Below, one piece after another: positions 543 to 42,485 of a DNA stretch of 42,657 nucleotides. Both the position numbers and the translations under genes were made by a program. The DNA is from a virus. A model generated the notes under the pieces. That model saw only the letters and a program-made list of their open reading frames with translations. It was not told the DNA's origin and searched no databases. The DNA is taken from positions 1 to 42,657 of IMG/VR virus record IMGVR_UViG_3300042934_000878; one strand, given 5' to 3'. Within the stretch, counting starts at the first letter, position 1, and every line of letters starts with the position of its first letter.

Positions 543-839
543 CTACGGTTCTCGGTCGATCTGCTCCTGCTGCAGAGCCTCTACCTCGTCGCGTATCCAC
601 GCGATGCAACGAAGGGTGTTGGGCGCTTCCTCGTGAGGCGCAGCCGCCATGATGGCGAGCGAGATGCCGACGCCGACCACCAGCTGCCCTTCCTCCGGCT
701 CGCCGAGGATGTCGAAGCCGGAGATCGGAACTGCGATGGCTCGGCCGGCGCTCGCGAACTCGGTGCAGGCGACGCCGACCCATTCCGCGAGGTCGTCCGC
801 GACCACCACCGAGTACGCGCCGTAGATCAGTCGCTTCAT
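543..839 (-). CDS. hypothetical protein coupled to integrase (98 aa)
   Basis: A 98-residue protein starting MKRLIYGAY, from an ATG that overlaps the integrase stop in an ATGA arrangement (836-839), so translation is probably coupled. The sequence has a hydrophobic middle (around residues 48-62, GQLVVGVGISLAIMAAA) and an acidic, Gln/Glu-rich C-terminus. I recognise no family. It is the last gene of the leftward integration operon and lies between int and attL, a position often used by small recombination directionality or exclusion proteins. The sequence does not show which, and no DNA-binding motif is obvious. A longer frame reading through from 1058 is an overlap of the integrase gene and is not believed. 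Confidence 0.7.
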   Translation of the reverse strand: MKRLIYGAYSVVVADDLAEWVGVACTEFASAGRAIAVPISGFDILGEPEEGQLVVGVGISLAIMAAAPHEEAPNTLRCIAWIRDEVEALQQEQIDREP

Positions 840-1996
840 GCGCTCTCGCCGAACTGCTCGAGGATGTCGCGGACGTCCGGACCCAGGTACTCGCGCGCGG
901 CGTAGAACTTCCGGGTGACCTCGGAGTTGGAGTGACCGAGCTGCGCGCCGGCGCTCTCGATGTCGACGCCGTCGCGGATGGCCGTCGCGACGGTCTTCCG
1001 GAACGTCTTCGGCGTCAGCCACATCGGGTAGTCGTTCGCCAGCTTGAACTCGCGCCACTGCCGGCGCAGGTTCGCCGGTGACCGCAGCGTGCCAGTCGAC
1101 GACGGGAACACCCAGTCGGAGTACGCGCGTTCGCGGCGTCGGACCAGCATCTCCCAGACGAAAGTCGGGAGCTGCAGCTTCCGGAAGCCCGAGTCCGACT
1201 TCGGTCGCTCCTGCCGGATGAGCCCGACGCTGTCAAGCTGCACCGCCGTCGCCTGGATCGTGACGATGGGCACCTCGACGTCGAGGTCGAGGTCAGACCA
1301 GCGGAGGGCGACGAGCTCACCGGTTCGGATGCCGGTGCCGAGCAGCATGTCGGTCGGCTCGGCGAGGTCGGTTGTGCGGGCGCGCCCTGCTCCGTCGAGT
1401 CCGGCGTCCCACTTCCGCAGGTCAATCTGCAGGGCGCGCACCTGTTCGAAGGTGACGACCTGCACCTCCTTGCGCTCGATCCGGACGGACTGCGCCTCGC
1501 GCACCGGGTTGGTCGCGACCGCGCCGCGGCGGACGGCGAGGGAGAACATCGCGGTCAGGACGACGCGAGCCGTCTTCGCTGCGCCAGGGCCTCGCCGCGA
1601 AGACAGCGTCTCGACGACTCGGTCGATGACGGGCACGGTCGCCTCTCGCAGCCGGACCCCGCCGAGCGCGGGCAGCACGTTCACCTCGAGCGACAGCTTG
1701 TAGTTCTGAACCGTCGAGGGTGCGCGCCCCAGCTTCTCGAGGACGGCGACCCATTGCTCCGCGAGCTCCGCGACCTTGCTTTCGGACGTGAGGTCACTTC
1801 CGTGCGTGCGGACGCGGTCGCGAAGGTGCTCGACCAGGGCGTCCTCGGCGCGGCGTCCGGTCGGACCCTGGCGGGCGACCTTCCGGGTGACGCCGTCGAA
1901 GTCGCGGAAGCGGGCGCTCGCTGTCCACTTGCCGGGACCCTGCTGGGTCCGGCTGATCGATCCCCAGGTGCCGAGCACCAGCGGTGGACGTGCCAT
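836..1996 (-). CDS. int: tyrosine-type site-specific integrase (Int1)
   Basis: A 386-aa tyrosine recombinase that would catalyse prophage integration and excision at the tRNA attachment site. An N-terminal arm-binding/SAM-like region (about 1-175) includes the core-binding stretch near 72-165. The catalytic domain follows with Arg224 in GTGIRTGEL, Lys266 in the beta-hairpin, a box II TPKTFRKT (Arg333), His355 in LGHSNSEV and the nucleophile Tyr365 in RKFYAA. The usual His of the HxxR motif is Lys330 here. Length is normal for actinophage integrases. It is about 440 bp from attL, transcribed toward it, and overlaps the downstream 98-aa gene by 4 bp. The upstream repressor gene ends 30 bp before it, so the two may share a transcript. 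Confidence 0.95.
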   Translation of the reverse strand: MARPPLVLGTWGSISRTQQGPGKWTASARFRDFDGVTRKVARQGPTGRRAEDALVEHLRDRVRTHGSDLTSESKVAELAEQWVAVLEKLGRAPSTVQNYKLSLEVNVLPALGGVRLREATVPVIDRVVETLSSRRGPGAAKTARVVLTAMFSLAVRRGAVATNPVREAQSVRIERKEVQVVTFEQVRALQIDLRKWDAGLDGAGRARTTDLAEPTDMLLGTGIRTGELVALRWSDLDLDVEVPIVTIQATAVQLDSVGLIRQERPKSDSGFRKLQLPTFVWEMLVRRRERAYSDWVFPSSTGTLRSPANLRRQWREFKLANDYPMWLTPKTFRKTVATAIRDGVDIESAGAQLGHSNSEVTRKFYAAREYLGPDVRDILEQFGESA

Positions 1997-6512: not shown

Positions 6513-7018
6513 CCGTCTCCATCTACATCCCATCGACACTGTCCGCCGGCGCCCGCCAGGCCCTCACCGACATGCTCACCAGCACGACAGAGGTCGCAAC
6601 GCTCGTCGATACCGAGCAGGGCCCGTGGACAACCGCCGATGCAGAAGCCATCGCCGTGGAGCTCGAACAGGCTGGCTACGGCGTACGAAGCCGTACGGGC
6701 ACGTTCGCGTGGACGATCGAGCCGTACAGCCCGCCCACCCTGGGCACGGACTTCCTCGACGACATCGCGCCGGCACTGGCAATCGTCCAGCAGATCATGA
6801 CGGACACGAATGCCGTCCGCACTCCCGAGAACCCCGGCGTCGTCGGGAACACGGCAGGCATCGGCACGTACGGACTTCTCATCGGTGTGCTCAACATCCT
6901 GCAGCTCGCCGACCACGACCTGCGAGGCGAACTGAAAGCGCGCCCCGCCGCCGTCATGTTCCCCGTCGTCGCACAGCTGCTCGCTCGACACATCCGCCGA
7001 GAGGCGGGACAGCTGTGA
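6509..7018 (+). CDS. hypothetical early protein (169 aa)
   Basis: A 169-aa protein starting MTVSIYIPSTLSAGARQ at an ATG overlapping the HNH stop. It has a mixed alpha/beta N-terminal part with YIPSTL and a hydrophobic stretch around residues 115-135 (AGIGTYGLLIGVLNILQLA) that could be a buried helix or a single membrane segment. No family is recognised. The GTG of the replication initiator overlaps its stop (GTGA), linking it to the replication genes. Confidence 0.72.
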   Translation: MTVSIYIPSTLSAGARQALTDMLTSTTEVATLVDTEQGPWTTADAEAIAVELEQAGYGVRSRTGTFAWTIEPYSPPTLGTDFLDDIAPALAIVQQIMTDTNAVRTPENPGVVGNTAGIGTYGLLIGVLNILQLADHDLRGELKARPAAVMFPVVAQLLARHIRREAGQL

Positions 7019-7815
7019 CTGGAGTACCCGTCGAAGAGGCCACTGCGCACGACTTCATGCAGGTGCGGGCTGCTCTCGTAGCGCGTGTTGGCGGCGCGAA
7101 CGAGGCGCTCGTGTGGACGCGCATCAACTACCGATGCGCCGACAAGGCTTACGCCCACCTCGACGAGCAAGGGGTCGCGTGGTGGCCGGCCTCGAGCACG
7201 CAGATCAGCGCAGAGGTCGGCCTGTCCGTCGACCAGGTGGACCGGGCTCTGCGCGCGCTTCGGAACGGTGGCTACGTCGATGCGACAGAGCACCGACTCG
7301 GCGGCAACTACGACCGAACGAAGTCCTGGCGCCCAGTGCTCGACCTGCGCGGAGTCGAGTCCGCGAATTCGCGGAATGGAGACCGCGAAATCGCGGACAA
7401 GACACCGCGGAATCGCGGACAGGACCCCGCGAATTCGCGGAATCTTCCTCTTAGTCAAGACACTCTCTCTACGTCGGACGTCGCAGGAGCGACGATCCGT
7501 GACGACGTCAGGGAGATCCTCGACTACCTCGACGCAGCGATCGAGCGGAACGACGCGAAGAAGCCGTCGCGGACGAAGAAGAACCTCGACGCGGCTCGCC
7601 GGCTGCTCGACAACGACGAGCGCACCGTCGAGCAGGTCAAGAAGGCCATCGACTGGGCCACGACCGACTCCTTCTGGCGCTCCAACATCCTGTCGATGGC
7701 GAAGCTCCGGGAGAAGTACGACCAGCTGCGGCTCAGCGCGCAACGAGCCGAGCAGCCGCAACAGAACCGCCAGCCCGCCTACGCGGGCCGAGAGGAATAC
7801 CGGGCACCCGAATGA
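7015..7815 (+). CDS. replication initiator (winged-helix/DnaD-like)
   Basis: A 266-aa protein with the layout of phage replisome organisers. An N-terminal winged-helix domain (about 25-110; ISAEVGLSVDQVDRALRAL, then GGYVDA) precedes a low-complexity middle (115-145) and a helical C-terminal part ending FWRSNILSMAKLREKYDQL (220-238), a pattern seen in DnaD-like and lambda O-like loaders. It would bind the origin and recruit the helicase encoded next. The middle segment is encoded by four DNA iterons (7361-7441), so the likely origin lies inside the gene, as in lambda O. GTG start overlaps the previous stop; its own stop overlaps the helicase ATG. Confidence 0.82.
   Translation: MTGVPVEEATAHDFMQVRAALVARVGGANEALVWTRINYRCADKAYAHLDEQGVAWWPASSTQISAEVGLSVDQVDRALRALRNGGYVDATEHRLGGNYDRTKSWRPVLDLRGVESANSRNGDREIADKTPRNRGQDPANSRNLPLSQDTLSTSDVAGATIRDDVREILDYLDAAIERNDAKKPSRTKKNLDAARRLLDNDERTVEQVKKAIDWATTDSFWRSNILSMAKLREKYDQLRLSAQRAEQPQQNRQPAYAGREEYRAPE
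7361..7441 (+). repeat. ori: four iterons at exact 22-bp period, candidate phage replication origin
   Basis: A 15-mer CCGCGAAWTCGCGGA (third copy CCGCGGAATCGCGGA) starts at 7361, 7383, 7405 and 7427, exactly 22 bp apart, about two helical turns. Each copy is itself palindromic; with the preceding base the first is a perfect 16-bp palindrome. Because 22 is not a multiple of three the copies are read in shifting frames, so the repeat is conserved at the DNA level and not as protein repeats. A comparatively AT-rich, pyrimidine-rich stretch follows (7441-7480). Location inside the initiator gene matches lambda-type origins. Confidence 0.8.
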
Positions 7816-9083
7816 TCGATAACGACATCCCCTACGCGGAACTGGCCGTCATCGGAGCAGTCATGCACACCGACGGCAAGGCACTCGACCGCATCGCACT
7901 CACAGGCCGCGACTTCGAGGACGCCCGCAACGGCGCGTTCTTCGACCTGATGCGAGAGCGCCACGATCGTGGCGAACCGGTCGATCACATCACGATGAGC
8001 GTGCTGCCGAAGATGGATCCTCTCTTCATTGACCGTGCGTACGAAGCAGGCTGGTCCCATGCAGTGGTGACAGCTCACGCCGAGACGGTCGCAACTGCGG
8101 CTCTCCGGCGCCGTCTCGCCGTCGTTGGCAGCCGCCTGCAGCAGCTTGGTGGCGCCACAGAGTCAACGGAAGCGGAGCTACGGGAGCTTGCCTACAACTT
8201 TCTTGACGCGGCCATGGGGTCCGCTGTCTCCAAGGTCACGTACCTCGCGGACATCGTCGAGGAGACGGTGCAGTACATGACCGAGCAGCAGCAGTTCGTC
8301 CCCACACCCTGGCCGAAGCTCAACGAGATGATCGGTGGGCTCCGACCCGGCGCGCTGTACGTCTTCGGTGCCCGACCTGGCGTTGGTAAGACCGTGGTCG
8401 CGCAGAACCTCGCGCAGACACTTGCGCAACAGGGTGGTGTCGCGTTCAGTTCGCTCGAGATGGGCCGCTACGAGCTCCACCAACGGTTCATCGCCGCGAA
8501 CAGCGACATCACGCTGTACCGGATGAAGAACGGCCGCGTCACCGACCGGGACGTCCAGACCATCCGGACGAACGTGAAGCGGGTGTCACCGCACGTCGCG
8601 ATCGACGACCGCTCCTCAGCCGGATTGGCCGAGATCCGTCAGCACGCACGCCAGGTGCAACACGATGGCGGACTGTCCGGCATCGTCGTCGACTACCTGC
8701 AGCTGATGGAAGGCACGTCAGGCAGCCCAAGGCACGAAGTGGTCGCAGCGTTCTCCCGGGGTCTGAAGGTGCTCGCGCGAGACCTCCACGTCCCCGTCAT
8801 CGCCCTGTCCCAGCTGAACCGCAACAGCGAAGCCTCGCTGTCCGGTGAACCGAAACTCTCCGACTTGCGCGAGTCCGGCGCGATCGAGCAAGACGCCGAT
8901 CTGGTGGTCCTTCTGCACCGAGAGCGGGACGCGCAGACGAAGCAGCTCGACAACTTCCACATCACCTTCGACGTCGCGAAGAACCGGCATGGCGAAACCG
9001 GCCACGTCACCCTCGATTGGGACGGCACCCACTCTCGCGTCACAGACCCGACCACACGCCCTATGCAAGGAGCAGCAGCATGA
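7812..9083 (+). CDS. dnaB: DnaB-like replicative DNA helicase
   Basis: A 423-aa RecA-fold helicase that would unwind DNA at the phage origin. A short N-terminal DnaB domain (1-135) precedes the ATPase: Walker A GARPGVGKT (186-194), SLEM (214-217), Walker B IVVDYLQLM (291-299), the sensor-like ALSQLNR (331-337) and the arginine-finger region near LLHRERD. It is close to the usual 430-460 residues of DnaB. It is coupled to the initiator gene (ATGA) and to the downstream gene, forming an initiator-helicase cassette. Confidence 0.95.
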   Translation: MIDNDIPYAELAVIGAVMHTDGKALDRIALTGRDFEDARNGAFFDLMRERHDRGEPVDHITMSVLPKMDPLFIDRAYEAGWSHAVVTAHAETVATAALRRRLAVVGSRLQQLGGATESTEAELRELAYNFLDAAMGSAVSKVTYLADIVEETVQYMTEQQQFVPTPWPKLNEMIGGLRPGALYVFGARPGVGKTVVAQNLAQTLAQQGGVAFSSLEMGRYELHQRFIAANSDITLYRMKNGRVTDRDVQTIRTNVKRVSPHVAIDDRSSAGLAEIRQHARQVQHDGGLSGIVVDYLQLMEGTSGSPRHEVVAAFSRGLKVLARDLHVPVIALSQLNRNSEASLSGEPKLSDLRESGAIEQDADLVVLLHRERDAQTKQLDNFHITFDVAKNRHGETGHVTLDWDGTHSRVTDPTTRPMQGAAA

Positions 9084-38164: not shown

Positions 38165-38776
38165 CTACTTGCCCGGCGAGGCCTCGACCTCATCGAAGCC
38201 GCCGGCCGGCATCACGGTGACTCGCCACGCGGAGGTGACGGGCTGGTCGAAGGCGACCAGTGCGGTGCCCTTGGCGCCGGCCGCGAGGTCGAACATGGCG
38301 TACTTGTTGTTGGCGTCGATGAGGGCGTTGTACTTGTCGACGTCGTCTCCTGCTGCGTCCTCCCACGAGGAGAACTTGTCGGCAAGGTCGACGCTGTCGA
38401 TCTGCTGCCCGTCCTTCGTGACGACGGTGATGCCGTACATGTTGATCGACTCGGTCCCCGCCGTGTTGTCGATCTCCACCGGGACCAAGGTGACAGGCTC
38501 ACCGTCGACGGTGGCGCGAGCTGCCTCGACAGCAGCGGCGTCCGCGTTGGTCGGGTCGCCGCTGAGCTTGAACGTGCCGGTTGCTCCCTGGTAGTCGAAC
38601 GTCCAGGTGTCGTCGATGTGCTCGACGGGGGTCGGCGCCGTGGTCTTCGTCTCCGAGGCTGGGCTCCGCGGTGCTTCGCCCTGATCGCTCTGCGCTCCCC
38701 CGCTGCATGACGCGAGCAGGATTCCGATGGCCGCTGCAGCTGCGAAGGCTGACGCGACTCTGGTGTGACGGTTCAT
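38165..38776 (-). CDS. lipoprotein coupled to second integrase
   Basis: A 203-aa exported lipoprotein. The signal peptide has basic residues (RHTR), an Ala-rich core and the lipobox LASC with Cys24. A Ser/Thr/Gln-rich spacer (25-50) and a beta-rich domain (about 57-203; WTFDYQGATGTFKLSGDP, then VTLVPVEIDNTAGTESINM and the closing SAWRVTVMPAGG) follow. The domain resembles DUF4352-like, telokin-like extracellular modules. It would sit on the cell surface. Prophage lipoproteins often block superinfecting phages. The ATG overlaps the integrase stop (38773-38776), so the two are made together. Confidence 0.82.
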   Translation of the reverse strand: MNRHTRVASAFAAAAAIGILLASCSGGAQSDQGEAPRSPASETKTTAPTPVEHIDDTWTFDYQGATGTFKLSGDPTNADAAAVEAARATVDGEPVTLVPVEIDNTAGTESINMYGITVVTKDGQQIDSVDLADKFSSWEDAAGDDVDKYNALIDANNKYAMFDLAAGAKGTALVAFDQPVTSAWRVTVMPAGGFDEVEASPGK

Positions 38777-39951
38777 GGTGTTCCCCCTGATGATGATGGA
38801 TCGGTCGATGTGACGAGTCGCGCCATGGCTGCGAGGGCCGCACGTTGGGCGCCGCGGTCTCCTCGTGAGCGGTACGCCCTCGACATCGTGACGGTGGAGT
38901 GCCCGACGATGTCGCCGATGACGGCCTCGGAGACGTCGGCTGCATAGAGCAGGTCGACAGCTGCGTGTCGTGCGTCGTGAAGGCGAGCGTCCCGAACGCG
39001 CGCTCTCTTCAGCACGTCGTGCCAGGCACGGTTGTCGTCACGCGGGTCGATCGGAGACCCCTCGAGGGCAAGGGTGCCGCCCTGCCGAGTGTGCTTCGGG
39101 TCTGACGTCCACAGCAGACCGTGCGGATTCGGTTCCTCCCCCGCGATCCGCACACGCCGTTCGATGATCGACCGCAGCGGATCCACCAACGGCACCACAC
39201 GCCAACCTGCAGCGGACTTCGGCCGCGACAGCCACAGCCCTCCCTTCAGGTGTCGGAACTCCTGATCCTCGGGAGCGTCCAGGTGCCGTTCAGGGCACTT
39301 CGCCCCTTGCCGCGCGCCGCAGCGGGGCCTGTCAGACGAGTGCTTCGTGCATCCGTGCGACCAGGAGAACCGCTTCAACTGCCACGACAGGTCGAGCTCG
39401 TCAGTGACACGTTCGAGCTCGAGACCAAGGAGTTCCCCCTGTCTCGCACCCGTAAGCAGCGCGGCGGCGATGCGGGATCCGAGCCGGTCATGCTGCACCG
39501 TCTCGAGGATCCGTGCTCCGTCATCCGCGGTGAGGGCAACCAGCTGCGCCAGCTTCTTCTTCGGTGCGCCGACCAGAGTCGCGACGTTGCGCGGGATGTG
39601 CTCGTATCGGACCGCGTCTCGCAGTGCGAGAGACAGCACCCGATACGCCTGCTGTGCACTGGCCCCGCCAAGCCCACGGTCACGGATGAACTTCTCGACC
39701 AGCCCGACGTGTGTCGGAGTGAGCGCGCGGACCCCGACGGTTCCGATCGCCGGCACGATGTACTGCTCGATCGAGGTCCGGTACGACGCGATGGTCTTCG
39801 GGGCGATCTTCTTCGAGTGGATGTGCGCGAACCAGTGGCGTAGCCACGTCTCCAGCGGCTCGCCGTCGTCTACTCCGACGTCGGCAAGCGCGGCAGCCAA
39901 CTCAGCGCGGTTCTCGGCGCTGAGTCCGCTCACGAGCGTCTGCCAGGTCAT
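38773..39951 (-). CDS. second tyrosine recombinase/integrase (Int2)
   Basis: A 392-aa tyrosine recombinase with an intact active site: Arg170 in LTGARQGEL, Lys245 in SRPKSAAGW, His325/Arg328 in LHDARHAAVD, His351 in IVGHSTVTM and Tyr360 in SRAYRS. The N-terminal SAM-like core-binding domain lies at about 30-130. A cysteine-rich insert (about 197-222, SHGCTKH, RCG, KCPERH) may bind zinc. Start taken at ATG 39951; a TTG at 39987 would add 12 residues. It differs clearly from Int1 and is coupled to the lipoprotein gene. Confidence 0.93.
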   Translation of the reverse strand: MTWQTLVSGLSAENRAELAAALADVGVDDGEPLETWLRHWFAHIHSKKIAPKTIASYRTSIEQYIVPAIGTVGVRALTPTHVGLVEKFIRDRGLGGASAQQAYRVLSLALRDAVRYEHIPRNVATLVGAPKKKLAQLVALTADDGARILETVQHDRLGSRIAAALLTGARQGELLGLELERVTDELDLSWQLKRFSWSHGCTKHSSDRPRCGARQGAKCPERHLDAPEDQEFRHLKGGLWLSRPKSAAGWRVVPLVDPLRSIIERRVRIAGEEPNPHGLLWTSDPKHTRQGGTLALEGSPIDPRDDNRAWHDVLKRARVRDARLHDARHAAVDLLYAADVSEAVIGDIVGHSTVTMSRAYRSRGDRGAQRAALAAMARLVTSTDPSSSGGTP

Positions 39952-40072
39952 GCCCTGAGCGTCGTGCCCGGACAACCTCGAAGTCAAACGTCACTAGTGC
40001 TACTTCCGCGCAGGTACGCCGATCGAAGCCGGTAACGGTTGCGTAACTCTCGGCTTGACGCGCTGCGCGGGT

Positions 40073-40477
40073 CTAGGGGCGGCTACCGCGTAGCCTCTGG
40101 TAGATCGCCTTCAGGACCGCCGCGCGTGCAGCTGGGGCGTCGTCTGCCACCGGACCGAACTCCCCCTCGAAGAATCTGCGGGCGACCTCGATCACTAGCA
40201 GCGTGACGTCTTCGAGGTCATCGGGGTGCTCGGGCGTCACCGGGATGACGTGCGTGATCTCAGCCTGGCTCTGGCCAACGAGGTGCGACAACTTGAACGT
40301 CCATTCGCCGCCCGTCTTCTCGATGATCAAGTCGGTGTCGGCGTCCAGCCCAACGTCGACGTACCGCCAGTTCGGGTCGGCCCCGTCGCCCGGCATCGCG
40401 CGGCCGGCGTACGCATGCAGCGTCGACGAGTGCGACCAGATCATCGTCGCCAGCTCGTGCGCCTGGAACTCGTTCAT
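40073..40477 (-). CDS. hypothetical protein (134 aa)
   Basis: A 134-aa protein from an ATG at 40477 (a frame back to 40528 adds 17 residues that read like non-coding sequence). It begins MNEFQAHELATMIWSHS, contains YVDVGLDADTDLIIEKTGGE and WTFKLSHLVGQSQAEITHVI, and ends in a helix RAAVLKAIYQRLRG. Acidic and soluble; no family recognised. It lies between Int2 and the toxin-antitoxin pair, divergent from neither. Confidence 0.65.
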   Translation of the reverse strand: MNEFQAHELATMIWSHSSTLHAYAGRAMPGDGADPNWRYVDVGLDADTDLIIEKTGGEWTFKLSHLVGQSQAEITHVIPVTPEHPDDLEDVTLLVIEVARRFFEGEFGPVADDAPAARAAVLKAIYQRLRGSRP

Positions 40478-40528
40478 GTCCACACGGCCGAACCTAACAG
40501 CCGGCGCGTCCGTCAGAGCATGCCGCAA

Positions 40529-41032: not shown

Positions 41033-41622
41033 TTCTCGAAGAGCCGCGACAGTCGAAGAACAATCTCGTCTTCGTTCTCATCCGCAGCCTCAACGAACCC
41101 CTCAGGCACCATGACCACAGCCGAGTGGAACACTCGATCCTTGGCCGGCACCTTGTCACGGAAGAACTCGACCATGTCGGCGTCGGGGATCTCGGGACGA
41201 TAAGCGTCCTCGACGTAGTTCCTGGTCCAAGGTTCCTGGTGGTGAGTCAGGCGCCGCAGAGCGGCCGCGCTCAGGTCCTTGTACCGTTCCCACACCTGTC
41301 CGATGAAGGCTTCGACGTCCTCGGGTAGAGCGCTGGCGTCGGAGTAACTACTGGCGTCTTGGGTCGCGATGATCTGGTTACCGGGGAACATCTTCCAGGC
41401 GCGGTACACGACGGGCCCGTGCTTGTAGGCCTCCACGGGCTCGTTGAACAAGCGGCGACCCGTCGACGCAAGGTAGTTGGCCTGCGCGAGGTAGAGAAGC
41501 TTCTGAAGCTTCATGGGAGTCACGTCTGCGTCTTCGCGCAGCGCATCGAGTTGCACAAACGTCTTCGCGACGTCCTCCACCTCGAGGTCGTAGTTGAACA
41601 CAGCGTCCTGATGGTTCAGCAT
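41029..41622 (-). CDS. Panacea/SocA-like (DUF4065) protein, probable antitoxin
   Basis: A 197-aa protein with the DUF4065/Panacea core: TPMKLQKLLYLAQANYL (36-51), then EPVEAYKHGPVVYRAW (61-76). A helical C-terminal half (ALPEDVEAFIGQVWERY, DLSAAALRRLTHH, RDKVPAKDRVF) follows. Panacea domains neutralise many unrelated toxins; SocA-like members can be proteolytic adaptors. I chose the ATG at 41622 because AGGAGGTGATC lies 4-14 bp upstream; a GTG at 41655 would place the start inside a DnaA-box-like repeat. Coupled to the GNAT gene, so a toxin-antitoxin pair is likely. Confidence 0.85.
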   Translation of the reverse strand: MLNHQDAVFNYDLEVEDVAKTFVQLDALREDADVTPMKLQKLLYLAQANYLASTGRRLFNEPVEAYKHGPVVYRAWKMFPGNQIIATQDASSYSDASALPEDVEAFIGQVWERYKDLSAAALRRLTHHQEPWTRNYVEDAYRPEIPDADMVEFFRDKVPAKDRVFHSAVVMVPEGFVEAADENEDEIVLRLSRLFEK

Positions 41623-41974
41623 CCCGATCACCTCCTCTTCGTTCTCGTTGTCCACACGTTGTCCACAGTTTCGGGCATGTTATCCACACCCCCTGTTGAC
41701 AACAGACTACTCGCACGTCGTCGCGGCGCGCCATGAAGGAAAGGTCCAAATTTCTCCTGACGGATGGGGCAGATACGACGAAGACGGAGTGCTCCTCACT
41801 GACCCGAGCACTGCGCAGCTACCTCCGTCAGAGGCCCCAGCAGTCCGCAACGAGTCCGCAACAGCACCACTTCGGCACTTAAACCGACTGTCCCCGGCTA
41901 CACCCCGATCCCCGCGAATTCAACGGTCACACCACGAGCCGTCACCCACCTACACGCCCGCGTGTGTACTTCGG
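41623..41974. promoter_or_regulatory. control region of the toxin-antitoxin operon
   Basis: No convincing gene. Near the antitoxin start are three DnaA-box-like 9-mers: TTGTCCACA at 41648-41656 and 41659-41667, and TTATCCACA at 41680-41688, all in the same orientation. Then comes the perfect palindrome CTGTTGACAACAG (41693-41705). TAACAT (minus, about 41682-41677) could be a -10. Plus-strand frames (from 41648, or an ATG at 41734) have no ribosome binding site and are probably non-coding. The rest (to 41974) holds a small direct repeat AGTCCGCAAC around 41840-41862 and nothing else clear. Confidence 0.6.
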
Positions 41975-42410: not shown

Positions 42411-42446
42411 GTACCCCCGGTGGGACTCGAACCCACAACTCAGCGA
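42411..42446. repeat. attR: attR, 36-bp direct repeat within tRNA
   Basis: Identical to 365-400. It covers tRNA nucleotides 40-74 (3' side of the anticodon stem, variable region, T arm, acceptor and discriminator base) plus one base beyond. Integration here restores an intact tRNA, so insertion is silent for the host. The 115 bp between the last prophage gene and attR hold nothing recognisable. Confidence 0.93.
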
Positions 42447-42485
42447 TTTTAAGTCGCGTGCCTCTACCGATTGGGCCACGGGGGC
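42412..42485 (-). tRNA. tRNA with UAA anticodon (tRNA-Leu type)
   Basis: A 74-nt cloverleaf read on the minus strand: acceptor GCCCCCG paired with CGGGGGT (one G-U at the end), D arm GGCCCAATCGGTAGAGGC, anticodon loop CTTAAAA, T arm GTGGG-TTCGAGT-CCCAC, discriminator A73. CCA is not encoded. The UAA anticodon and A73 indicate leucine. The variable region is only about five nucleotides, whereas leucine tRNAs normally carry a long variable arm. It is the prophage attachment gene. Confidence 0.88.

Follow-up and report, generated by a model that had tools for sequence, protein, structure and literature searches.

The 42,657-bp window, by which we mean the whole stretch of DNA analyzed, carries near its right end a Panacea-domain antitoxin gene followed by a GNAT acetyltransferase toxin gene, and in front of this pair lies a compact array of predicted boxes for DnaA, the bacterial replication initiator (Table 1). 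Two identical copies of a 36-bp att repeat, the right-hand of which forms the 3' end of a tRNA-Leu(TAA) gene, enclose the operon, which therefore lies inside an integrated element beside attR, with the array ~0.7 kb from attR. A location of the operon outside the prophage was considered and ruled out by this enclosing repeat, despite the second integrase gene that adjoins the operon; the second integrase may itself belong to an inner or earlier element. Arthrobacter phages match parts of the phage head region at 70-79% identity, from which we take the prophage host to be probably a member of the Micrococcales. A DNA-similarity search of the array region in phages returned no match.

Table 1. 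Features of the prophage, the operon and the predicted DnaA-box array (window coordinates; distances in bp from the antitoxin ATG)
Feature	Position	Strand	Remarks
attL, 36-bp repeat	365-400	no strand	identical to 42411-42446
Integrase gene (tyrosine-type)	836-1996	-	near attL
Phage DnaB-like helicase gene	7812-9083		
Second integrase gene (tyrosine-type)	38773-39987	-	beside the toxin-antitoxin operon, near attR
GNAT acetyltransferase toxin gene, 167 aa	40529-41032	-	Pfam PF13673; overlaps antitoxin stop codon (GTGA)
Panacea (SocA-like, PF13274) antitoxin gene, 197 aa	41029-41622	-	Pfam; AlphaFold2 model
Shine-Dalgarno AGGAGG (within GAGGAGGTGATCGGG)	41631-41636	-	sequence
Predicted DnaA box 1, TTGTCCACA	41648-41656	+	exact match; TGTGGACAAC on coding strand; -34
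Predicted DnaA box 2, TTGTCCACA	41659-41667	+	exact match; -45; 11 bp from box 1
Predicted DnaA box 3, TTATCCACA	41680-41688	+	exact match; -66; 21 bp from box 2
Near-box TTGTCAACA, 1 mismatch	41694-41702	-	inverted, within palindrome; -80
Inverted repeat CTGTTG-A-CAACAG (CTGTTGACAACAG)	41693-41705	no strand	6-bp arms, unpaired central A
attR, 36-bp repeat	42411-42446	no strand	3' end of tRNA-Leu(TAA) 42411-42485

Domain content and gene order predict that the gene pair is a toxin-antitoxin system of the Panacea-GNAT type. Panacea is the sole domain that Pfam recognizes in the antitoxin (PF13274, 2.9e-18, above cut-off) and the toxin matches PF13673 above cut-off; the SocA NCBIfam model reaches 56.8 bits on the antitoxin against a cut-off of 190 and thus falls far under it. 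We place the operon start at the ATG at 41622, behind AGGAGGTGATC, and not at the GTG at 41655, which sits within a box. A further open reading frame (40073-40528, - strand), which matches no Pfam or PHROG family, follows right after the toxin gene and possibly belongs to the same operon. Most type II antitoxins contain a DNA-binding domain with which they repress the operon that encodes them. The AlphaFold2 model of the antitoxin (pLDDT 88) shows a single compact domain flanked by a short, flexible N-terminus and a C-terminal tail of lower certainty, and neither Pfam, AlphaFold2 nor Foldseek detected a helix-turn-helix or other DNA-binding domain in it; the Foldseek search of PDB structures gave no significant match and no fold hinting at DNA binding. 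The lack of a recognizable DNA-binding domain makes an outside regulator plausible. Kurata and colleagues likewise consider Panacea probably not to be the autoregulator and favor a sensor role for it (PMC10440598).

The array, 26-80 bp upstream of the antitoxin ATG, comprises three exact 9-mers and one inverted near-box. On re-reading the sequence we found the three 9-mers, their positions, their common + orientation and their start spacing of 11 and 21 bp to be as given in the initial annotation. The adjacent element that it had called a perfect palindrome, CTGTTGACAACAG, differs from its reverse complement at the center and is more properly an inverted repeat. TTRTCCACA occurs three times in the window, each time within the array, compared with an expectation of 0.16 from shuffles, none of which contained three; related whole genomes hold ~60 such sites per 3.0-4.7 Mb, and among the sites listed for these genomes no three fall within 41 bp. 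When one mismatch is allowed the 42.7 kb contain seven sites, four of them inside the one 55-bp stretch that forms the array, and the largest such cluster per 60 bp counts four sites in the window compared with one (59 runs) or two (1 run) in 60 simulated second-order Markov sequences of the same composition. The clustering of the boxes is real and non-random.

We then turned to related operons, which were collected by protein similarity with no regard to boxes. The close set comprises six loci with the same gene pair, from Arthrobacter sp. H-02-3 (L012), Microbacterium sp. Root53 (L013), Mycobacterium sp. ST-F2 (L015), Timonella (L016/L004), G717 (L134) and an IMG/VR prophage independent of that in the window (L338). 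The last of these carries the best array, with five copies (TGTGCATAA, TGTGAATAA, TGTGGATAA twice and TGTGAATAG) spaced 11-12 bp apart at -82 to -35. Upstream of the Arthrobacter operon lies a degenerate four-copy array at -118 to -84, again with 11-12 bp spacing, the last copy of which is the exact TGTGGATAAC; of the three boxes in Timonella (L016), at -48 to -25, one is exact, and L134 has a single exact box at -94. Exact boxes thus precede the operon in four of the six close relatives, compared with 5/359 control upstream regions (p=2.5e-6), the controls being upstream intergenic sequences taken at loci of the same kinds. No boxes are found upstream in L013 and L015, though these have the same gene pair, and two more distant Panacea-GNAT loci (L135, L136) contain no exact box. 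A Sanguibacter locus (L014), in which the Panacea gene is followed by a different acetyltransferase-like gene, also has no boxes. Conservation upstream of homologous antitoxin genes, to which the initial annotation had pointed as a check, is accordingly partial: it extends to the four relatives with exact boxes and fails in L013 and L015.

The recurrent arrays are carried by unrelated mobile elements and lie no more than ~120 bp upstream of the antitoxin start; their box number, orientation and distance to the start codon vary among the carriers. L338 and L016 are prophages; judged from a reading of the open reading frames, L012 is an island beside tRNA-Ser with an integrase-like gene and L134 lies near serine-recombinase-like genes. 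Most forks in the antitoxin trees are weakly supported and the box carriers do not form a single clade, with L338 grouping with the box-less L013 and L015 at 82/85 support. Given these weak forks and the scatter of the carriers, gain and loss of boxes cannot be ordered. The absence of boxes in L013 and L015, and of exact boxes in L135 and L136, implies that DnaA control would not be a necessary part of the module.

The same tandem arrangement was sought in 396 Micrococcales genomes, where the pair TGTGGAYAACNTGTGGAYAAC occurs once in each of seven genomes and a reversed control pattern does not occur. Five of these occurrences lie at the dnaA-dnaN site (L127, L128, L130, L131, L132), one between rsmG and parA (L126) and one upstream of dnaB (L129); at each of the six loci tested with Pfam (L126, L127, L129, L130, L131, L132) at least one diagnostic gene was confirmed. 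As all seven fall at replication loci, the tandem arrangement is a replication signature in Micrococcales chromosomes. The L129 site (G390:C1:1192458) reads TGTGGACAACGTGTGGACAAC, identical over 21 bases to the window, and its position 5' of a chromosomal dnaB raises the possibility of a DnaA-controlled dnaB. TTATCCACA is the high-affinity DnaA box of E. coli and B. subtilis, and TTGTCCACA that of M. tuberculosis and S. coelicolor (PMC4285127). The earlier recognition of the 9-mers as known DnaA boxes is borne out by this listing, by the tandem form at replication loci and by the recurrence of the arrays, and there is good support for the prediction that DnaA boxes lie at this prophage toxin-antitoxin promoter.

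We propose, with a probability of roughly 60%, that cooperative binding of host DnaA to the array represses or tunes the Panacea-GNAT operon. The three exact boxes and the inverted near-box (41648-41702) would cover the leader and probably the promoter of the operon, and DnaA would take the place of autoregulation by an antitoxin's own DNA-binding domain. Free, active DnaA would keep the operon low, and its loss, titration or inactivation, through replication stress, the takeover by another phage or phage DNA replication, would let expression rise. Two points make repression the likeliest sign: the leader, and possibly a -10 element (TGTGGATAACAT), lies under the boxes, and several promoters that carry such boxes, that of dinJ among them, are repressed by DnaA. 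On the coding strand box 3 offers GATAAC/TAACAT as a candidate -10 element; a promoter consensus scan recognized no promoter, so the occlusion of RNA polymerase is something we infer, as we infer that DnaA binds in vivo, where the promoter lies, which sign the regulation has and what its physiological role is. The box words are those of E. coli and actinobacteria and may differ from the preference of the DnaA of the actual host. The initial annotation did not know of a description of a link between a toxin-antitoxin operon and host replication status; DnaA is in fact reported to repress E. coli dinJ, the antitoxin gene of dinJ-yafQ, two- to threefold (PMC6015884), whereas a search of open-access papers returned no account of DnaA boxes in front of Panacea operons. 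Panacea-GNAT pairs (VcaAT, PMC9177977) and DnaA control of a toxin-antitoxin gene are thus each already known.

A different function for the same bound protein would be that of a datA-like site through which the prophage titrates or sequesters DnaA, with no meaningful effect on the operon. Box clusters away from oriC can titrate DnaA (PMC5835720), and the tandem pattern is common in viral contigs (at least 119 matches), so the mere presence of a DnaA-box array in a phage is nothing unusual; in the 80 viral loci that were read, no Panacea or GNAT gene lies beside the pattern, and the common tandem TGTGGATAAC pairs of viral contigs have no toxin-antitoxin link. The viral contigs with tandem CTGTGGATAACCTGTGGATAACT arrays (L163-L242, from at least 119 matches) differ widely in GC. 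Three or four boxes would be few for a titration site, and titration does not require that arrays recur within ~120 bp of the antitoxin start on unrelated elements. We consider a pure titration site improbable, and titration as a side effect of the array possible.

Where tandem and inverted repeats occur at a toxin-antitoxin promoter, they usually serve as operators for autoregulation, and the inverted arm here resembles a box. The repeats could on these grounds be the operator of some other repressor, either phage-encoded or the antitoxin-toxin complex acting through an unrecognized DNA-binding mode, which resembles DnaA boxes by its sequence. Against this stand the exact identity of the words with known DnaA boxes, the confinement of the tandem arrangement to replication loci in the 396 genomes, and the presence of boxes in front of some Panacea operons with different toxins. 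An autoregulatory complex is further disfavored by the antitoxin, in which Pfam, AlphaFold2 and Foldseek found no DNA-binding domain, and a phage repressor by the palindrome, which has no other close copy in the window. An operator of this kind therefore appears, if anything, slightly more doubtful to us than a titration site.

A secondary or phage replication origin, which the initial annotation had also entertained, is quite unlikely. The tandem arrangement is typical of oriC and the array is close to attR, yet GC remains at 54-66% over 41.0-42.3 kb (100-bp windows) with no AT-rich unwinding region, the boxes number four and no more, and the phage DnaB-like helicase gene is far off, with no box cluster near it and a single one-mismatch site at 6624 as the nearest. 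We attach equally little credence to the boxes as chance matches or as remnants of a -10-like promoter sequence (GATAAC/GATAAT). A -10 element could be present in TTATCCACA, whose coding-strand sequence is TGTGGATAAC, and this could also explain the single-box relative L134; TGTGGACAAC, in contrast, is unlike a -10 element, shuffles rarely or never match the arrays of three to five copies, and only 5/359 control promoters have a box. An RNA leader hairpin that controls translation through the inverted repeats is the least credible. Folding of the window leader is somewhat more stable than that of its shuffles (z -2.7), but the leaders of relatives are not outstanding (z -1.8 and -1.2), the window leader is structurally unremarkable 3' of a box-3 promoter (z -0.2), and a search of Rfam gave no match.

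Beyond the close relatives, conservation across all Panacea operons was considered; among those with other toxins it receives no support from chromosomal loci, where an exact box precedes 2/136 operons compared with 4/281 control promoters (p=0.64; no excess). Viral Panacea operons carry one in 5/42 cases, compared with 1/78 viral controls (p=0.02) or 5/359 of all controls (p=0.002), an excess at viral and prophage operons that is suggestive and weak. Another viral count, 7/42 with 0.06 expected, uses as background the rest of each locus, which is mostly coding, and includes the near-duplicate pair L360/L364, so that the control-promoter comparison (5/42) is the fairer of the two. Short box-like arrays with 11-12 bp spacing are seen 5' of Panacea genes with other partners at L363, L362, L355, L155 and L361, and in P. 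aeruginosa phage CF60a (MK510969.1, L394) an exact TTATCCACA precedes the start of a Panacea-domain gene (prophage ps3 protein 01) by 30 bp. No exact box is present in those Panacea examples from E. coli, Salmonella and Paenibacillus that were read.

DnaA control of the operon in the window could be one instance of a broader arrangement, in which prophages and other integrated elements would recurrently employ DnaA as the dedicated transcriptional regulator of their Panacea toxin-antitoxin operons, in place of antitoxin autoregulation, and the toxin system would thereby sense the replication state of the host or a phage takeover; we regard this extension as tentative and rather unlikely. For Panacea antitoxins that have no DNA-binding domain, a DnaA-box array would offer a concrete and testable answer to what controls the operon and to which cue it responds. 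The array would tie the toxin system of a mobile element to the host replication cycle, and the operon would make a simple reporter for switch-on by DnaA loss during replication stress or phage takeover. If limited to the close clade, the arrangement would be a neat regulatory variant; if the weaker prophage-wide Panacea signal holds, it would be a general wiring rule.

The closest known counterparts of the gene pair are the DUF4065(Panacea)-GNAT pairs of the VcaA-VcaT type (GNAT toxin clade C, PMC9177977), in which, as in the window, the gene for a Panacea antitoxin immediately precedes that for a GNAT toxin. The operon in the window differs in that it resides on a prophage and has a DnaA-box array in front; the passages of the VcaAT paper that were consulted contain no discussion of transcriptional control. 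Among the E. coli SOS genes repressed by DnaA and LexA, dinJ (PMC6015884) resembles the operon in the window, where DnaA boxes are likewise predicted at the promoter of an antitoxin-toxin pair. The dinJ promoter, however, has a single box overlapping the LexA site, compared with three exact boxes and one near-box here, and DinJ is itself a known repressor, whereas the Panacea antitoxin has no recognizable DNA-binding domain. The actinobacterial oriC arrays in the dnaA-dnaN intergenic region use the same words in the same 11-bp tandem arrangement; the array in the window has far fewer boxes, is not accompanied by an AT-rich unwinding region and is located at a predicted toxin-antitoxin promoter. 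Lastly, the Caulobacter type VI toxin-antitoxin system SocAB also relies on a Panacea-domain antitoxin, but the toxins differ, in that SocB blocks replication and the toxin encoded in the window is a GNAT acetyltransferase.
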